A program made the translations under genes and the position numbers. Positions 24,212 through 33,690 of a DNA stretch of 64,000 bases are shown piece by piece (position 1 is the stretch's first letter; the number at the start of each line of letters is the position of its first letter). The stretch comes from Methanobrevibacter sp. Lineage in GTDB: Archaea > Methanobacteriota > Methanobacteria > Methanobacteriales > Methanobacteriaceae. Below the pieces are notes generated by a model that worked only from the letters and a program-made list of their open reading frames with translations, was not told where the DNA came from and made no database searches. The stretch spans positions 1 through 64,000 of the forward strand of contig NZ_JAUNXX010000001.1 in assembly GCF_030539555.1 (NCBI RefSeq). The letters are read 5' to 3'.

Positions 24212-24583
24212 TCAGGAAAATTTTCGCAGGTCAAGTTTCCAGTTCTTGTATGCAAGGTCCCTGTCGATTTCTTTCCACTCCAGACCGGATTTTTCAACAT
24301 TCCTCTTTAATGTCTGAAGACTGTGGGATTTCAAGTCAGATCCTCTATAGTACCAGAACTCCCCTTTCCTGTAGACATTAAGGAATCCTGTATAGTTTGC
24401 CTTGTCCTCTTCAAGGGATTTTTGCGCAAGGTCCCGGTCAAGAACCGACCATTTAAGCCCATGCATGCGGACAAGGAATTCCAAATCCTTCAGATTGCCT
24501 GCCTCATGGGACTTTTCACCAAAAATGTATTTCCAACTCAAGTCATCCATCTGGTATACGTTCATGAACCCGGAAAATTTCAT
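24212..24583 (-). CDS. two-repeat hypothetical protein
   Basis: 123 residues made of two copies of a ~52-residue unit. Each opens with (S/T)GF(M/L)NVY and an aromatic strand, and closes with GL(K/E)W...(L/I)DRDLA; the copies start near residues 4 and 65. The unit is beta-beta-alpha-like and could be a small DNA- or protein-binding module, but I do not recognise it. GGAGG precedes the ATG. It lies 55 bases downstream of a winged-helix regulator on the same strand and may be co-transcribed with it. Confidence 0.7.
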   Translation of the reverse strand: MKFSGFMNVYQMDDLSWKYIFGEKSHEAGNLKDLEFLVRMHGLKWSVLDRDLAQKSLEEDKANYTGFLNVYRKGEFWYYRGSDLKSHSLQTLKRNVEKSGLEWKEIDRDLAYKNWKLDLRKFS

Positions 24584-24990: not shown

Positions 24991-25950
24991 CTAACTGGCC
25001 GGGTCAAGCTGGCTCAGGATGTCCCTTTCACAGCTGGAGTCTTTTGAAAGAGCCTCAAGGGCAAAGGCTTTTCCTTCAACTGCCCTTGTGAAATCATCAT
25101 CCAAAACGAAGTGGTTGTCAAGAAATTCGCAGAAACATTCAAGCGCCTTTTCATGCTCATTCATCTCATTGAAGATTGAAGCCTTTAAAAGAAGCGGTTT
25201 TTTATCAATCTTATGAGCCATGTCAAGGCTTTCAATGCAGTCCATCCCCAAGACGTATTGGCAGTAGCCCCTGCCGAAATATGCCGTGTCGTTTTTGCGC
25301 ACACCCAAGGATGCGTCGAAACTGGCCAGCGCCTCATCAAATCTGGAAAGTTCACACAGGACAAATGCCTTCTTATTCAGGAGCTTGAAGAGAATCCTGT
25401 TCTTGAATTTTGAAGGGTTGACTAGAGCCTTTTCATAGAAATCCAAAGCCTTCTCGTATTCTCCTCTTGATGATGCTTCATCGCCTGCATAGATGTTTCT
25501 TTTAATCCTTGGGAAATTGTCCCTTTCACCAGCAGATTCCTTTAAAAGCATCCTGTAATAATCATTATCACTGACTGAGGACTTTCTGTAGAATCTGAGG
25601 GCCTTGACGAAGTGTCCCTGAGCGTATAGCGCATGGGACTTGCTGATTAGTGCACCTGAATACTTGTCATCATACCAGATTACGCTGTCGAAGCATTCAA
25701 TGGCCTTTGCGTACTTTTTTCTGCTGAGAAATCCTATTCCCTCATCCAGAACATTCCTTATTTGTATTTCCTTTTGAAGATGTCTTAGCGGATAGAATCT
25801 GTTTAGGTTTTCAACGCTGATTCTCTGCATGAACGCATCATTCGAACTCATCCAGTTCGTTTCAATCTCACCAAATCGAATCCTTACCATGTCTGCCTTT
25901 GTTGAAACAGACAAATCATCTGTCAATTCCTGAAGTTCACTCAAGCTCAT
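24991..25950 (-). CDS. tetratricopeptide repeat protein
   Basis: 319 residues from ATG 25950 (a GTG lies directly upstream). From about residue 68 it consists of TPR-like helical pairs: GFLSRKKYAKAIECFDSVIW, then ALRFYRKS, EKALDFYEKAL, EALASFDASL and EKALECFCEFL. TPR arrays mediate protein-protein binding. It is the last of three genes on the same strand, 53 bases after the UvrD-type helicase-nuclease, so it may serve as an adaptor for that enzyme. No enzyme motif is seen. Confidence 0.82.
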   Translation of the reverse strand: MSLSELQELTDDLSVSTKADMVRIRFGEIETNWMSSNDAFMQRISVENLNRFYPLRHLQKEIQIRNVLDEGIGFLSRKKYAKAIECFDSVIWYDDKYSGALISKSHALYAQGHFVKALRFYRKSSVSDNDYYRMLLKESAGERDNFPRIKRNIYAGDEASSRGEYEKALDFYEKALVNPSKFKNRILFKLLNKKAFVLCELSRFDEALASFDASLGVRKNDTAYFGRGYCQYVLGMDCIESLDMAHKIDKKPLLLKASIFNEMNEHEKALECFCEFLDNHFVLDDDFTRAVEGKAFALEALSKDSSCERDILSQLDPAS

Positions 25951-26003
25951 CACGAATATTTATATTGAAAACCCCTTAAATATCTTATTCAAAAATAAGA
26001 TTC

Positions 26004-29000
26004 TCATCTCTCAAACATACAGGTCACCGAGCTGAACTCGCAGTTCCTGCAGTTTACGACATGCTTTGGATAGTCATCGTTTTCAATATGGGTTATTACG
26101 CTTTTAAGATAGTCAAAAATAAAATCGTTTCTTTCAAATGAGATTTCATACTGCTTGTTTTCATCAAGGACATGGAGTATAAGGGAATTTATCTCAAAGT
26201 TCTCGTTTTCAAGAAGGGCATATGCATAATAGCATAACATCTGCATGTAGAAGTAGTGGTAGTTTCGCATTTCATCACGGGACTTTATGAAATGAACAAG
26301 ATTGACCGAAGTGTCGTTTTCCCTTACTATCAAATCGATTATTCCGTTGACGTCATAGCCGCCGATTTCAAGTGACACCGGATGATTGAAATCGACGATT
26401 TCACACTCCCTTCCATAGTCAATCCAGTAATCCGCCACATGATCAAAAAGCCGGGTGAGATAATCCCTCATGGTCTTGGAGGCAAAGCCGTATGACTTCA
26501 CGACTTCACCCACAAGCCCGACAATGTCCTGCCTTGACCAGTCCCTTTCAAGTTTTGGATTATGGATTGTGTTAAGGATGACTCTCATTTTCGAGTTTAT
26601 GAACTTGTTGATGTTTTTGGGATTGCGATAGCCCAGATTATTCTCCAGATTGTACCTCAAAGGACAGAAAAGATAATCGCCGAGTATGTCCTCGAATTCT
26701 ATCTGCCTGAACAGGTTGCTTTCACGGGGCATGTGGGAGGTCACCTTCTTGAGGCCCTCGACGTCATCAGGTTCTATGCGCTCTATCACACCGAAATCAT
26801 CCTCGAATCTATCCAAAACGTCAGGCAGAGGAGTGTTCATTCTTGCCTCAACGCTTGAAAGGATGAGAAGCTCTTCTGCACGGGTGTTTGCAACATAAAC
26901 TATGCGCTCCTCCTCGCGGTTCAGCGCCTTCAGCTCATCTGATTCGGACATCTTGTATTTCAAAAACCTGTTCGGTGTCGGATAGGTCGGTCTTTCAAAG
27001 TCATCGCTTTTCCTGCCCCTGAAAAGAATCGGGAACTTGTTTTCCTTAAGCGATGCGGTTATGACAACTGGATATTCAAGTCCCTTGGCCTTGTGGACCG
27101 TCATGATATGGACCTTGTCTGTGTTGTCCTCGTATTCGTTGATAGGGCAGCTGTAGTACTTGAGAGAACGGTGCAGGTAATTGAAAAGGCCCACGACATC
27201 ATGCTTTCCCATGATGTTTTCATAATCGGATATTATTCCGGATATCAGTGCAAGGTTAAGTGACGCCTTTCTTGACTGGAAGTCTGATTTCGATGATAGC
27301 TCCTCAAGATAACCCGTGATGTTGAGCAGCCTGTAGAACACTTCAAGGGAAGTGGGCTTTTTGGAGGTGTCAATGTTCCTGTCGAAAAGCAACCTCTTGA
27401 GCTCGTTTAATTTGGTGAAAAAGTCCAAATCGTGCTCGTCGGTGATTCCGATTGCTAGAAGCTCTCTTCTTGAGAGGGTTGAGATGTCTATTTTGTTTGC
27501 CTTCCTGAATATGTCCTCAAGAACATCATCCGAATAATCCCTCACCACATCCATGAATGAGCCTGACTTAGTGTTTTTCTCAAGGGGATCATACCTGGAT
27601 GTGTAGCTTACCACGTTCTGGTGATACTTGAACTCGATTTCCTCAAGCACCTGTATTGTCCTGTAGCTTAGATGGAAGATTTTTGAGGAATTGTAATACC
27701 TGTCCGTGAAGGAAAGCAGGTTTATCCAATGACCTCTGTCCCCATATCTTGCAATCAGCGTAGGGCTGAATGGCAAAATATACCAGAAGAGTGCCAGAAC
27801 TGCCTTCGCCTCGTCCTGATAGATAAGGTCGTCGATTCCCTTAAGGTAATATGGAATGCCCTCCCTGGTGAATACGTCAAGTATTTCCTTCTTGTCCCTG
27901 TGTGAGCGGAAGAGAACGCAAATGTCACTGTATTTGCCTATCTTTTTAAAGGATTTCAGGTTCTTGACAATGAATGCTATTGAGCGGTACTCTTCAGATT
28001 CGTCCCTGCTTTCAAGAAGATAAACAGGCATTTTGGAAGGGTTTGAGGCCTTAAGGTTTTTTTGGGTCTGCCTTTTGGATTCTATGTATCTCTCGTTGAA
28101 CTCGACAATCTCAGAGCTTGAGCGGTAATTGTTGACCAGAGTCCTGTTTTCAAACTCGTCACTGTTGGCATAATCCGTGAAAAATTGGGGGTTTGCTCCC
28201 CTGAAAGAGTAGATACTCTGGTCGGCATCCCCAACAACAGTGAAGGTGTCAGCTACAGACTGAAGCCTCTCGAATATCTGCATCTGAATCGCATCGGTGT
28301 CCTGAAACTCGTCAATGAGAATGTTTTTGTACTCGACACGTGCGAGATTTCTCTCGTCGCTTAAAAGCTCCAGGGCCTTGAGTAGCAGATAGTTCTGATC
28401 GCAGACATGTTCCCTTTCCATCAGCTCAATCCAGTCGGGGTATGACTTTGCAATCTGAATGAAACGTGAATTGTATAAATCCTCCTCGAAGTTATTGTAC
28501 TTTATCTCCTTTTTGGAGGGATATCCTGAATTGTTGCGGAAGTATTCGCGAATCCATGTTTTGTACTCATCGCTTACGCTGAAGTTATCCTCAACATACT
28601 CGACAAGGCCTGGGGTGTCCACCTCAAAAAGCGCATATTCCTCATACTTTTTCAGGGCCTGTGCAGATTCGAAGCTTCTCAGGAATGATTCGCACCTGAA
28701 TCCAAGCTCCTCCTTGTGCTTGTTGAAAAAAAGGTTTCTCTCGGAGTCCCTTTTAAGCAGGTTATATGGAATTTGCGAAAAGTCTGAAAGTACTGAGCGG
28801 CAGTAGCTGTGAATGGTGCTTATTCTCATCTGGTTTATCACACTCAAATCGAGTTTTGTATCCTTTTTGAAGCGTTCCCTAAGCTCGTCTGCAGCCTTGT
28901 TGGTGAATGTGATGACAAGTATTGATGACGGCTCTGCGCTTTCAAGAAGGTGAAGTACCCTTTCAATAATCACGCGGGTCTTTCCCGCACCTGGGCCTGC

Positions 29001-29696
29001 ATTGATGATGAGCGGCTTTTCACCGTCATATTCAACGGCGCTTTCCTGATAGCTGTCCAGTTCAATTTCAACAGGAATTTCACGAACAATACAATAGTCC
29101 TTTCTTTTATGGGCTTCAAAGTTAAGCTTGCGTGTGAGAGGGTTTTTTTCACTGTCGACCAAATCAAGGCCAAGGATGTTATTTTTGATGAATATGTCGA
29201 GATTGCGCCTGACTTTTTCTATTGTAGATTTTTTCAAATCCCCCGTTAAATCACTTAAAAAGATCATGTCATCACCGGAGTCGATACCGATAAATTTTGG
29301 AGATATTGAATCGGCTTTAAGGTTATCCAAAAGCAGGAAAAGTTCAACATCACTCAATTTTGGATTTTTTCCAAGATATTCAAGGTCAAAGTCATAATCC
29401 ACCTTCAAAAACTCTTCGCGGGGATTGTAATAGTTTTCATAAATGATATCAAAAATCTGCCTGTGAGCCGCCTTAACGTCAGTGATGTTGAAATGCACGG
29501 AGGTGTCATTGAAGACATCTATGGTGAAAACCAGTTTCTGGGAGGTTCTCTCACAGAAGACATCCAAAATCACCTTGGCCGCCGCCATTGCCATGGTGTA
29601 GTTTTTCAGGACAGCGAGCTTTTCCATGACTATGCACAGGTCATGCAAGTCCCTGAACTTTGTTTTGAGAAAAGAAAAAACGCTGTCAACCCTCAT
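26004..29696 (-). CDS. UvrD/Rep-type helicase with C-terminal nuclease-like domain
   Basis: About 1230 residues. A ~210-residue N-terminal domain of unknown fold precedes a complete superfamily 1A helicase: Q motif, Walker A AGPGAGKT (~233-240), IDEFQD (~461-466), VGDADQSIYSFRGA, TVHKAKGLEYP and VYVANTRAEELL. The C-terminus resembles AddB/RecB/Cas4 nucleases: FCPLRYN, GIIDLIV, then HFIKS, and C-x2-C-x6-C at the very end, fitting an iron-sulfur cluster. The acidic residue expected two before the Lys is Phe, so cleavage activity is doubtful. ATG 29696 has GTGAGG upstream, overlapping the end of the preceding gene. Likely role: DNA end processing or repair. Confidence 0.9.
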   Translation of the reverse strand: MRVDSVFSFLKTKFRDLHDLCIVMEKLAVLKNYTMAMAAAKVILDVFCERTSQKLVFTIDVFNDTSVHFNITDVKAAHRQIFDIIYENYYNPREEFLKVDYDFDLEYLGKNPKLSDVELFLLLDNLKADSISPKFIGIDSGDDMIFLSDLTGDLKKSTIEKVRRNLDIFIKNNILGLDLVDSEKNPLTRKLNFEAHKRKDYCIVREIPVEIELDSYQESAVEYDGEKPLIINAGPGAGKTRVIIERVLHLLESAEPSSILVITFTNKAADELRERFKKDTKLDLSVINQMRISTIHSYCRSVLSDFSQIPYNLLKRDSERNLFFNKHKEELGFRCESFLRSFESAQALKKYEEYALFEVDTPGLVEYVEDNFSVSDEYKTWIREYFRNNSGYPSKKEIKYNNFEEDLYNSRFIQIAKSYPDWIELMEREHVCDQNYLLLKALELLSDERNLARVEYKNILIDEFQDTDAIQMQIFERLQSVADTFTVVGDADQSIYSFRGANPQFFTDYANSDEFENRTLVNNYRSSSEIVEFNERYIESKRQTQKNLKASNPSKMPVYLLESRDESEEYRSIAFIVKNLKSFKKIGKYSDICVLFRSHRDKKEILDVFTREGIPYYLKGIDDLIYQDEAKAVLALFWYILPFSPTLIARYGDRGHWINLLSFTDRYYNSSKIFHLSYRTIQVLEEIEFKYHQNVVSYTSRYDPLEKNTKSGSFMDVVRDYSDDVLEDIFRKANKIDISTLSRRELLAIGITDEHDLDFFTKLNELKRLLFDRNIDTSKKPTSLEVFYRLLNITGYLEELSSKSDFQSRKASLNLALISGIISDYENIMGKHDVVGLFNYLHRSLKYYSCPINEYEDNTDKVHIMTVHKAKGLEYPVVITASLKENKFPILFRGRKSDDFERPTYPTPNRFLKYKMSESDELKALNREEERIVYVANTRAEELLILSSVEARMNTPLPDVLDRFEDDFGVIERIEPDDVEGLKKVTSHMPRESNLFRQIEFEDILGDYLFCPLRYNLENNLGYRNPKNINKFINSKMRVILNTIHNPKLERDWSRQDIVGLVGEVVKSYGFASKTMRDYLTRLFDHVADYWIDYGRECEIVDFNHPVSLEIGGYDVNGIIDLIVRENDTSVNLVHFIKSRDEMRNYHYFYMQMLCYYAYALLENENFEINSLILHVLDENKQYEISFERNDFIFDYLKSVITHIENDDYPKHVVNCRNCEFSSVTCMFER

Positions 29697-30543
29697 ATGC
29701 CTCACTATAATAATTGATACACATCCTTGTCAGGAACGCTCCGTTGATTCTCTCGGCACATACCAGACCGTTTAAAATTTTTGATCTAACGTCCCTTTTG
29801 ATTGCCTCGCCGTCGGCAATCGTGAGATGCTTGTTTTCAAGAAGCTTATTGAATGAATCGCCATTTCCCAAAACCAGACTTTCCCATTTGGAAATGGCTT
29901 CAGCCTTCTTGGCTTCAGATCTTCGCATCACCTTATCGAGAAAAGAAACCTTAACGCTTGTGAAATTTAATCCGTCAAGAATCTCGGTATAAAGCTCATT
30001 TGCAATCTGGACAATGTCTGAATCACGGATGTTTGGATAGTCCCTTTTCACCTTGTCTATAACCAGAGTGTCATAGTTTTTTCCGACAATCATTTCAAGG
30101 GACTTTATGTATGAGCCCTGCTTGACGGCGTTTGAAAAATAATACTCCAGACCGCGCTTGATTTCGAAATCACTGATGTTGTCTTCGGTGATTTGCCTCT
30201 CCAGTCTGGTGTAGATAATGTCCATGTCCCTGGGTGAAACTTCATATCCCGAAAGGTATTTCAAATAAAACTCGCTGCTTTCATCCATCAGCTGACCCAG
30301 ATATTCCAGCTTGGATCTTTTCTCCTTCACATGCCACATCTCAGTGAAATAGTCCTGTATCACTTCAACAAGATTGTCATCACCGGATATTTTCCCATCT
30401 GAAATGTCATTTCTGATTTTTGATATGACAAGCTCGCATTCCTCAAGGCTCAAATCATAAGAGTAGAGGAGATATTTGAAAAAGGGAGTATCATACTCTC
30501 CGATAAGTTCATCCAATCTTGAAATAATTACTTCACTAGTCAT
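29686..30543 (-). CDS. hypothetical partner of the helicase
   Basis: 285 residues, soluble, largely helical (MTSEVIISRLDELIGEYDTP), with no motif that I recognise. Its stop codon lies inside the first codons of the helicase gene (11-base overlap), so the two products are made together and probably interact. It could be a subunit analogous to the second subunit of AddAB-like enzymes or a regulatory factor, but the sequence itself does not show this. It is the first gene of the three-gene operon with the helicase and the TPR protein. Confidence 0.75.
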   Translation of the reverse strand: MTSEVIISRLDELIGEYDTPFFKYLLYSYDLSLEECELVISKIRNDISDGKISGDDNLVEVIQDYFTEMWHVKEKRSKLEYLGQLMDESSEFYLKYLSGYEVSPRDMDIIYTRLERQITEDNISDFEIKRGLEYYFSNAVKQGSYIKSLEMIVGKNYDTLVIDKVKRDYPNIRDSDIVQIANELYTEILDGLNFTSVKVSFLDKVMRRSEAKKAEAISKWESLVLGNGDSFNKLLENKHLTIADGEAIKRDVRSKILNGLVCAERINGAFLTRMCINYYSEAYEG

Positions 30544-30740: not shown

Positions 30741-31115
30741 TTATAAAAATTTTTTAGCTTCTGCTATGAATTGTTCAGCTTGAATTAGACAATCAAAGGC
30801 TTCCTGTTTATTAAAATCAACAGTGAAATCATAACTAGATTTTCTTCTAAGTTTTTTGGCATTAGAATAATAAGTATAAATGTCTTGACTGAAATCGCCG
30901 TCATGCACAAAATCTTTGCTGAATTGAGTTAAAATAGTGTCATGTTTCTTACTGATGAAATCATGAGTAAGTAATAATGCTTTAGCAGCATCAAACATTG
31001 CATAATATGAATGAGTTATTGAACCTCTATATTTTCCAGCATCAAATAAAATTTGAGCCATACTTAACTCTTCGACTGCCAAGTCCATAACTCCGTTAAC
31101 TTCTTCCATATTCAT
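30741..31115 (-). CDS. HEPN domain protein (likely toxin of HEPN/MNT pair)
   Basis: 124 residues forming a four-helix HEPN domain, typical in length. It contains RGSITHSY (Arg30, His35, Tyr37), which fits the R-x4-H-x-Y pattern described for HepT-type ribonucleases. It sits at the N-terminal YYAMFDAAKALL helix rather than near the C-terminus, so it may not be equivalent. The family acts as RNA-cutting toxins or as binding partners of nucleotidyltransferases. Its ATG overlaps the TGA of the upstream nucleotidyltransferase gene (ATGA), as is usual for this pair. Confidence 0.85.
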   Translation of the reverse strand: MNMEEVNGVMDLAVEELSMAQILFDAGKYRGSITHSYYAMFDAAKALLLTHDFISKKHDTILTQFSKDFVHDGDFSQDIYTYYSNAKKLRRKSSYDFTVDFNKQEAFDCLIQAEQFIAEAKKFL

Positions 31116-31417
31116 ATTGGAACACCTTCTGCCATCACGGTTTTAAGGAAGCTATAATCTTTTGTTTTATTAAAATGTTCTTCAGTCATTACATGTGGTG
31201 AAATCACTTCTTCTTTTTCAAGAATAAAATCAACAACAATATTATCAATAATGGATTCCAATTCATGATTATCATGATTAATAACAATTAATATATCAAT
31301 ATCCGATTCATCATTATCCTCACCACGTGCAACAGATCCAAATAAAATCATTCTAATAATCTCATCTGAATTGATAGCATTAGCAAACTCATGAGCAATT
31401 TCAATCCTATTATGCAA
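31112..31417 (-). CDS. minimal nucleotidyltransferase (MNT antitoxin)
   Basis: About 101 residues with the exact MNT signature G-S-x10-D-x-D in GSVARGEDNDESDIDILI. MNT proteins of HEPN/MNT pairs silence the HEPN toxin by transferring AMP to it. No ATG is available. TTG 31417 is preferred because GGTGAT lies four bases upstream, while the longer frame to TTG 31435 has no site. It overlaps the HEPN gene by four bases. Together they form a stand-alone two-gene module bordered by AT-rich spacers. Confidence 0.85.
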   Translation of the reverse strand: MHNRIEIAHEFANAINSDEIIRMILFGSVARGEDNDESDIDILIVINHDNHELESIIDNIVVDFILEKEEVISPHVMTEEHFNKTKDYSFLKTVMAEGVPI

Positions 31418-31661
31418 TACAATCACCAATGACAAATTCGTTAATAAATAATTTGAATTTCATCAATAATAAATACTTTGAAACTGTGACTGTATGAAAA
31501 AACACAAACTACGATTGAAAAATAGTAACATTATCCAAAAATGAAAACTACTCTAAAGACAATAAATATACAATATTTCGAATACAATTGGAAACATAGA
31601 CTATAAAAAAATAATTTGTTGAAATAATAAAAAAAGAGATTTCAGCAATCCCTTAAAGTGT

Positions 31662-32760: not shown

Positions 32761-32786
32761 AGGTGATTTTGTAAAAATCATCACCT
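32761..32786 (-). terminator. hairpin terminator overlapping stop codon
   Basis: AGGTGATTTT pairs with AAAATCATCACCT (two-base bulge) across the end of the 115-residue gene. On the minus strand it is followed by a T-rich tract. Confidence 0.55.
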
Positions 32787-33128
32787 CATTTTTTTGGCCA
32801 GATCCTCATCAAAGACATACCATATCCTATTGTCCGAAATCACCGATTCTTTAAGCTCACAGACAGAATATGCAACGATTACATATTCCCTTTCACAGTA
32901 GCACCAGAGCTTGCCGAAAAGGTGAACCCTGAACATTCCTGTCTTGTTCTGAGAATAGTTGAAAATCAGTTCGGCTGTCAGTGACTCTTCCAGATAAAGG
33001 AAGATGTCCTTCAGCTGTCTGTCCTCAACATGACTCAAGTCCAAGATCCCGTAGTCAATGTCTCTTAATGTTTCACCGTTTAGAAAGTCTACAATTTCAC
33101 TTGAATATCTAATCCCGTCTATCTCCAT
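32781..33128 (-). CDS. hypothetical protein, second gene of a pair
   Basis: 115 residues when started at ATG 33128 (MEIDGIRYSSEIVD), which has GAGGTGA four bases upstream. The longer frame to 33173 overlaps the previous gene and lacks a site. It is a small alpha/beta-looking protein with a hydrophobic centre (LTAELIFNYSQ) and two Cys in WCYCERE. No family is recognised. It follows the 181-residue gene after 16 bases and ends in a terminator, so the two form an operon. Confidence 0.7.
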   Translation of the reverse strand: MEIDGIRYSSEIVDFLNGETLRDIDYGILDLSHVEDRQLKDIFLYLEESLTAELIFNYSQNKTGMFRVHLFGKLWCYCEREYVIVAYSVCELKESVISDNRIWYVFDEDLAKKMR

Positions 33129-33144
33129 TTTCACCTCAAAAAAG

Positions 33145-33690
33145 CTATCGATGAATCTGCTGTTCATCTTCAAAAATCATATCCCACAGTATAGTGACAA
33201 TTTCCCTGTTTAACGGATTGTCCAATGACAGAAAATCCTCGTTTCCCTTATCAGATCCGAATTCAGCAAAGTAGGGTGTGTGAGCACACCCCTCTTCGAT
33301 TGTGGTTCCAAGCACAACCCTGCCCTTCTGGACTTTGACCCCAAAATCGGCAAAGTCAAAAAGCAAAACCTTTTCCACATCCCCAGTTTTGAAGGTCTTA
33401 ATCTCTCTACCGCACTCGAGTGTGAACAGGGCTCCGTTTGATGTGGCCTGCCCTGTTGCAAGAATCAGCCTGAGATATATTCCGTCTCCTTCAATCTTTC
33501 GATGGATGAATTCAAAGAATGCCTCATCCATGCTTTCAAATTCATATTTTTCATCAGCCTCACCGGCATAGGTCGGCATGCGGTCATCTGATGTCAGTTC
33601 ATCCACATAGAAATGAAAATCATCTCTTTTACCTACAGCGTTTTCAACAGTCCTAGCTACGTTTATATTGATTTTTCTGGATATTCTCAT
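33145..33690 (-). CDS. hypothetical protein, first gene of a pair
   Basis: 181 residues, soluble, with alternating beta-like segments (YLRLILATGQATSNGALFTL) and an acidic C-terminus (ILWDMIFEDEQQIHR). No motif is recognised. GAGGA lies a few bases before the ATG at 33690. The ~75-170 bases before the start contain several inverted repeats, so the leader RNA may be structured. It is co-transcribed with the 115-residue gene. Function unknown. Confidence 0.72.
   Translation of the reverse strand: MRISRKININVARTVENAVGKRDDFHFYVDELTSDDRMPTYAGEADEKYEFESMDEAFFEFIHRKIEGDGIYLRLILATGQATSNGALFTLECGREIKTFKTGDVEKVLLFDFADFGVKVQKGRVVLGTTIEEGCAHTPYFAEFGSDKGNEDFLSLDNPLNREIVTILWDMIFEDEQQIHR

Follow-up and report, generated by a model that had tools for sequence, protein, structure and literature searches.

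We describe here a two-gene cassette in a 64,000-nucleotide stretch of a draft Methanobrevibacter genome (contig NZ_JAUNXX010000001.1, positions 1 to 64,000; hereafter the window, meaning the whole stretch analyzed). The cassette encodes a 285-residue protein, P0001, and a 1230-residue UvrD-type helicase, P0002, whose Cas4-like nuclease domain has lost catalytic residues. We give about even chances to the view that the two products form a translocase complex that moves along DNA without cutting it and whose role is accessory and possibly defensive. The core elements, with lengths in amino acids (aa), are the following:

29686..30543, minus strand: P0001, 285 aa, the constant partner gene (an open reading frame, ORF, with relatives in 21 of 138 family genomes)
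26004..29696, minus strand: P0002, 1230 aa, a UvrD-type helicase with a catalytically degenerate Cas4/PD-(D/E)XK domain
29067..29696, minus strand: N-terminal extension of P0002, residues 1-210
26850..29054, minus strand: UvrD motor of P0002, residues 215-949 (Pfam bounds)
26025..26678, minus strand: Cas4-like PD-(D/E)XK domain of P0002, residues 1007-1224

The ATG of P0002 at 29696 overlaps the 3' end of P0001 by 11 nucleotides, and 50 nucleotides separate the end of P0002 from the start of the next ORF, which encodes a TPR protein. A reading made earlier from the sequence alone (the sequence-only reading) had described a 285-residue ORF overlapping a 1230-residue UvrD-like helicase, followed by a TPR gene, with some 210 residues ahead of the motor; coordinates and translations agree with the gene description, and the Pfam bounds bear out the extra N-terminal residues. 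Both P0001 and P0002 are genuine genes rather than chance ORFs, because protein comparison gives 46-73% identity between P0001 and its relatives and 62-78% between P0002 and its orthologues, and because the ratios of nonsynonymous to synonymous substitution (dN/dS) are well below 1. For P0001 they range from 0.07 to 0.16 in the 6 computable pairs, where dS is saturated, as in all pairs used here, and only the direction of the ratio is reliable.

The helicase itself is easily recognized. P0002 matches the Pfam families UvrD-helicase (1.8e-55), UvrD_C (1.8e-38), and PDDEXK_1 (9.8e-8; 32.7 bits against a cut-off of 22), and it also matches the NCBIfam Cas4 model TIGR00372 (2.3e-10, under that model's equivalog cut-off). 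Its partial likeness to AddA and RecB lies chiefly in the motor. To survey functional residues, we used an alignment of 38 helicases of the P0002 family and counted the rows with readable letters. Nine motor residues from motifs I-VI (the Q motif was not counted) are preserved in every readable row. The nuclease site of the P0001-linked clade presents a different picture. The first catalytic Asp (D1121 in P0002) is retained in all 19 readable members, and in the same 19 of 19 the second catalytic Asp has become His (H1135 in P0002), the catalytic Lys has become Ile or Val (I1137 in P0002), and the position aligned with the active-site His holds Arg, Lys, or Gln. All 15 paralogues, including one encoded in the window's own genome (G000:C17), possess the nuclease D, K, and H. 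Two sister helicases, L075 (G072:C74) and L076 (G030:C117), have lost D and K yet keep H, and the decay of the nuclease therefore looks stepwise.

What remains of the domain is well kept. Four C-terminal cysteines of P0002 (C1011, C1216, C1219, and C1226, spaced C-x204-C-x2-C-x6-C, the last lying just past the domain match) are the predicted iron-sulfur (Fe-S) ligands, and they are retained in 19/19 (the first) and 18/18 (the other three) readable clade rows. The iron-sulfur nuclease-like end proposed in the sequence-only reading thus holds for the fold signature (PDDEXK_1 and four Cys) and fails for the catalytic residues, which are lost. Among the 12 closest of 153 pairs, dN/dS is 0.03-0.11 in the dead nuclease domain and 0.035-0.092 in the motor. 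The two ranges lie near each other; the domain is under purifying selection and seems to be kept for a purpose other than cutting.

The pairing of the two genes is remarkably strict. P0001 occurs in 21 of the 138 family genomes and in one genus only; the 17 named loci with relatives all belong to Methanobrevibacter. When 151 genomes from across the phylum were searched with a profile, no further full-length relative appeared. Each carrier has a single copy, which is split across two contigs in G079. An orthologous helicase (at least 62% identity) is likewise present in 21 genomes, and in each of the 20 genomes whose contigs show both genes they are neighbors, overlapping or nearly abutting in the loci read. 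The exceptions to pairing lie at contig ends: one contig stops inside P0001 (G083) and another starts inside the helicase (G046). Distant helicase homologues, whose identity does not exceed about 40% and most of which lack the N-terminal extension, have no P0001. Helicase homologues lacking the 285-residue partner had been named as the observation that would speak against a linked pair; among direct orthologues, the partner is present in 20/20 readable cases. For two of the P0001-bearing loci, the stated source is a ruminant stomach compartment (omasum or abomasum; water deer and buffalo). Many carry the label RUG, which we take to mean rumen uncultured genome, and the window is accordingly likely to be of rumen origin too.

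The TPR gene, on the other hand, does not belong to the unit, although the sequence-only reading had counted it in the operon. At an E-value under 1e-50, it was found in 30 of the 67 genomes of the genus, 14 of which (15 copies) lack the P0001-helicase pair. Conversely, sequence extends beyond the helicase in 18 genomes, and an intact TPR gene stands next or next but one in 15 of them and a broken one in G078, while G057 and G097 have no TPR gene beside the pair. The TPR protein was considered as a third subunit and is ruled out by these co-occurrence counts. The cassette is composed of two genes, P0001 and P0002, and the TPR gene is part of the host locus.

P0001 is predicted to be an all-helical protein of 14 helices (AlphaFold pLDDT 89.7, pTM 0.69), arranged as four repeats of approximately 70 residues (about 1-74, 75-141, 142-210, and 211-283). 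Sequence comparison relates repeat 1 to repeat 2 (p=6e-6), 1 to 4 (p=1.4e-6), and 2 to 4 (p=3e-4); repeat 3 is seen in the model only, and its sequence does not match the other repeats. No Pfam family matches above cut-off (NAPRTase_N at 0.029 and LPD30 at 0.2 are weak, sub-cut-off matches), no NCBIfam or PADLOC model (PADLOC-DB version 2.0.0) is matched, and a comparison with solved structures gave no relative (best E 1.7). A Foldseek search with the model returned no match at E <= 0.001, and the best VIA-align row (1nxh_B, Z 5.6, root-mean-square deviation (rmsd) 8.0 over 110 residues) is within chance for helical proteins.

A relative of one repeat emerged from matches that at first looked like noise. 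Outside the P0001 family there are six weak profile matches (E 3e-4 to 0.06); two of them (G104, G126) were left as noise, and the other four (G007, G028, G050, G085) belong to one family of zinc-ribbon/SAP proteins. Repeat 4 aligns with a profile of the four N-terminal domains of these proteins at p=2.9e-8 and with the single sequences at 2.1e-5 to 4.9e-7, the best of 120 single-sequence controls reaching 0.025. In the reverse direction, a profile of the roughly 60-residue zinc-ribbon/SAP N-domain recovers repeat 4 of P0001 in the window genome (1.7e-4) and in G059 (1.4e-4). It has matches in 21 of 59 sampled family genomes, and both P0001-bearing genomes of that sample were recovered. A hidden Markov model of full-length P0001 does not match the zinc-ribbon/SAP ORFs, and the homology rests on the repeat-level comparison. 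On these sequence comparisons, we consider repeat 4 of P0001 homologous to the domain with which zinc-ribbon/SAP proteins from this archaeal family begin. P0001 as a whole seems to have grown by tandem duplication of one small helical domain found in archaea and is most likely a binding scaffold. The sequence-only reading had placed it in no known family, which still describes the database searches and no longer repeat 4. The zinc-ribbon/SAP proteins (L137-L140) are encoded by ORFs of 545-639 aa, with the P0001-type domain first, followed by zinc ribbons and a SAP domain. Two other origins or functions were considered and rejected for P0001. Derivation from the helicase N-terminus received an hhalign probability of 0.2%, and the longer N-termini of L075, L076, and L083 showed no profile similarity to P0001 either; a role as RNase or nuclease finds neither an invariant His nor strands in the model.

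The N-terminal extension of P0002 is modeled confidently (residues 1-210, pLDDT 89.3) as a mainly helical region. Its start aligns with the sister helicases (residues 1-46 with L075, p 3.8e-4; residues 1-42 with L076, 8.7e-4), and residues 6-28 only align with L083, a paralogue with intact nuclease residues (p 1.6e-3); the best of 150 control ORFs reached 8e-3, weaker than all three. The N-termini of L076 and L083 match DUF4145 below the Pfam cut-off (E 2.6e-4 and 0.008, respectively), and those of the window helicase and L075 have no DUF4145 or other Pfam match. DUF4145 belongs to the HEPN clan, and Anantharaman et al. (2013, PMC3710099) tabulate UvrD helicase among its fusion partners. Compared with such DUF4145-UvrD fusions, only the start of the region aligns in the window clade, which has no Pfam match there. 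The HEPN Rx4-6H motif is absent from the clade's extension, as is any invariant His; one His (H78) is nearly invariant and has no conserved Arg 5-7 residues ahead of it. Foldseek gave no match to the extension model at E <= 0.001, and the best VIA-align row (3c18_B, Z 5.3, rmsd 3.5 over 76 residues) is within chance for helical proteins. The extension may thus combine a worn-down, non-enzymatic DUF4145 descendant with a clade-specific part, this being the weaker of our homology claims. The sequence-only reading had found no recognizable fold here. That stands as to structure, where no convincing match appeared, and needs amending as to sequence, since its first residues are similar to those of sister and paralogous helicases, and the N-termini of two of these are weakly DUF4145-like.

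Some relatives of the helicase stand in neighborhoods of their own. The sister helicases L075 and L076 have no P0001 and both adjoin a gene for a large RNA polymerase subunit (by eye); L075 is followed by a protein that, by eye, is TPR-like and ends in a cold-shock-like segment, and the L091 helicase has a relative of this protein next to it. Three relatives with intact nuclease residues (L086, L088, and L089) adjoin HIRAN or HIRAN-like proteins. The neighbor of L088 is a TPR-HIRAN protein, and those of L086 and L089 were assigned by BLAST clustering. L086 and L088 also carry an AAA ATPase, as well as a protein of 270 aa that belongs to no family. We regard this neighborhood as a candidate separate defense operon.

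The cassette is inserted in a standing locus consisting of an AMP ligase gene, a 181-aa gene, a 130-aa gene, often a zinc-ribbon-like gene, and the TPR gene. In the window, its flanks are the following:

24991..25953, minus strand: TPR protein P0003, 320 aa, host-locus neighbor
32781..33690, minus strand: two small genes of 130 and 181 aa flanking the slot, with no Pfam match

Eleven loci in 10 genomes are contiguous from the 181-aa gene to the TPR gene and free of the cassette. Eight of the 11 hold nothing beyond small flanking genes, and the other three are occupied. The slot of G050, a genome listed at 8% contamination, contains an AAA_15/AAA_21 ATPase of 428 aa; HEC-02A (2.4e-32), PD-T4-4_A, AriA, and PtuA are among its best PADLOC models. 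That of G056 holds a 641-aa superfamily 1 (SF1) helicase, which matches MkoA at 2.4e-89 over the helicase part of the model, together with a small gene paralogous to the flanking 130-aa gene. A paralogue of that kind is all that the slot of G090 contains. We take AriA, PtuA, and MkoA to stand for the PARIS, Septu, and Mokosh systems, respectively.

Several further genes were observed around this site. In the window, a HEPN gene (124 aa) and a nucleotidyltransferase gene (107 aa) at 30741-31435 (minus strand) have what we take to be the layout of a HEPN-MNT toxin-antitoxin module. Together with ferritin-like and MarR genes, they lie between P0001 and the 130-aa gene, and all four are missing at that place in the relatives read. 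Just past the TPR gene of G095 (L127:8164-11966), two adjacent proteins each contain four tandem TIR_2 stretches, and two proteins of G047 cluster with them by BLAST. Small neighbors (window 24212-24583 and 32781-33173; L125:6974-7624; L126:6387-7022) share, by eye, a motif with conserved aromatic and W-x-V-x-D-E-like positions, sometimes twice per protein. BLAST clusters several of them, and for those that were scanned Pfam gave nothing above cut-off. The locus seems to be built by a local family of small paralogues.

In a tree of 35 helicases, the P0001-linked clade has a support of 100/100, as has its grouping with the sister pair. Within the clade, branches are short and even, and it splits five versus thirteen. 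A tree of the TPR gene requires three presence changes of the pair, and well-supported branches make two of these unavoidable: the window's five closest species fall among species lacking the pair, apart from ten other pair carriers. The same five-versus-rest split appears in both trees. Two histories fit, namely ancestral presence followed by losses and a single transfer from one lineage to another. For the flanking AMP ligase, the tree is weak (5/27 inner branches starred, with genomes with and without the pair mixed) and was left unused.

How does the pair relate to known systems? The sequence-only reading could name none that it matched, but the architecture of P0002 is that of the UvrD-Cas4 fusions described by Hudaiberdiev et al. 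(2017, PMC5704561). There, UvrD-Cas4 (pfam12705) fusions are proposed as parts of several defense systems and occur in mesophilic archaea. P0002 shares with them the UvrD-type SF1 motor and the C-terminal Cas4-like PF12705 domain with four Fe-S cysteines. It differs in the clade's loss of the catalytic D and K, in the 210-residue N-terminus, and in the constant repeat-protein partner. Among the window neighbors scanned (part of the window genes), there is no restriction-modification gene, whether of the Type III Mod/Res or Dcm/Vsr kind or another. A dead nuclease domain likewise has a precedent: in RecC of RecBCD, an inactivated nuclease-like domain forms a hoop for single-stranded DNA, according to Rigden (2005, PMC1185551). 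As in RecC, the PD-(D/E)XK domain of P0002 is without metal-binding residues and is proposed to handle DNA without cutting it; unlike RecC, whose helicase domains are dead too, P0002 has an intact motor, keeps its Fe-S cysteines, and has no adjoining RecB- or RecD-like partner.

With Gabija GajB (PMC10781630), P0002 has in common an SF1A UvrD-type motor and generic PADLOC GajB matches, whereas it is larger, ends in a Cas4-like domain, and has a different partner. No GajA OLD-Toprim gene stands beside the helicase, and the flanking P0001 and P0003 match no PADLOC model. Among the records listed by our literature search, none describes such a pair and none joins Methanobrevibacter, UvrD, helicase, and nuclease. 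By term search, the main text of a recent survey of archaeal immunity (PMC12988326) contains neither "UvrD" nor "Methanobrevibacter". A survey of 62 archaeal rumen genomes with models of known systems reports at least one defense system in 96% of them (PMC11834463). The UvrD-Cas4 family and the dead-nuclease idea are already known; their combination with a clade-wide loss, a constant helical-repeat partner, and a swappable slot does not appear among the records that our literature search listed.

A mechanism can be sketched from these parts. P0001 would dock on the helicase, the clade-specific N-terminus being the probable site, and serve as a scaffold, clamp, or substrate adaptor. The dead nuclease domain, stabilized by a putative Fe-S cluster, may guide or grip single-stranded DNA in a RecC-like manner, while ATP hydrolysis would power 3'-5' movement, as in UvrD, Rep, and PcrA. 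The complex would then strip proteins from DNA, or unwind or remodel it, without degradation.

We consider it quite probable that the pair encodes such a non-cutting complex, and slightly short of an even bet that defense is its purpose. The purpose is taken to be accessory, with defense against foreign DNA somewhat more likely than core repair, judging from the slot that the pair fills and from the precedent of the UvrD-Cas4 family. The more specific proposal, a new defense or anti-mobile-element machine in which a UvrD-Cas4 helicase with a four-repeat helical adaptor displaces or blocks foreign replication by means of a non-cutting, Fe-S-stabilized guide, is doubtful. Several points weigh against the defense-leaning translocase. 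Contact between P0001 and P0002 is deduced from gene linkage, and the activity of the complex from sequence; cutting by P0002 is very unlikely, judging from its residues, and a rewired site is formally conceivable. Among PADLOC models, P0002 matches only the generic UvrD-type ones of several systems. The case for the slot consists of two alternative occupants in draft genomes. Searches of viral, phage, and plasmid collections did not find P0001, and the short, even branches and shared split fit vertical inheritance better than an arms race.

Some of these observations lend weight to an accessory repair or replication motor that clears stalled forks or protein blocks on host DNA, the slot being just a tolerant spot; this is possible, and we hold it as the chief competitor with a tentative minority share of belief. 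Purifying selection on the pair, largely vertical descent with the flanking locus, and a single-copy gene missing from mobile-element collections are all in its favor. It sits less easily with the failure to find P0001 in 117 of the 138 family genomes (many of them drafts), with the absence of the pair from this site in relatives whose contigs run through it unbroken, with the use of that site by Mokosh-like and PARIS/Septu-like genes, and with the TPR-HIRAN and AAA genes adjoining some nuclease-intact helicase relatives.

AddAB, AdnAB, and RecBCD join a helicase to a PD-(D/E)XK domain, and the sequence-only reading was reminded of AddAB. An end-degrading helicase-nuclease of AddAB/RecBCD type, with P0001 as the second subunit, would account for the motor, the Fe-S PD-(D/E)XK architecture, and the partial, largely motor-based likeness to AddA and RecB. 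Such a layout implies an active nuclease, whereas no readable member retains the catalytic D and K, and this loss makes end degradation unlikely. Moreover, P0001 is predicted to be all-helical, has no invariant His, and matches no helicase or nuclease model, so that, unlike those systems, the pair has neither an active nuclease nor a second helicase-like subunit; we give this alternative very little credence. It is also rather improbable that P0001 and P0002 are co-transcribed without forming a physical complex, P0001 having a regulatory or separate role. The kinship of repeat 4 to the first zinc-ribbon/SAP domain allows for that, as such proteins may bind DNA themselves, but the linkage, 20/20 in both directions with overlap or near-abutment in the loci read, speaks against it.

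For the UvrD-Cas4 family as a whole, the non-cutting translocase complex would be instructive. Its fusions are widespread, and their presumed action is to unwind and cut DNA; a clade that has kept motor and Fe-S fold under selection while giving up cutting would be a natural case of separation of function. The prediction is that translocation alone, together with a dedicated partner, is enough for a biological role. If this is true, rumen methanogens would offer both a defense candidate and a slot worth mining.

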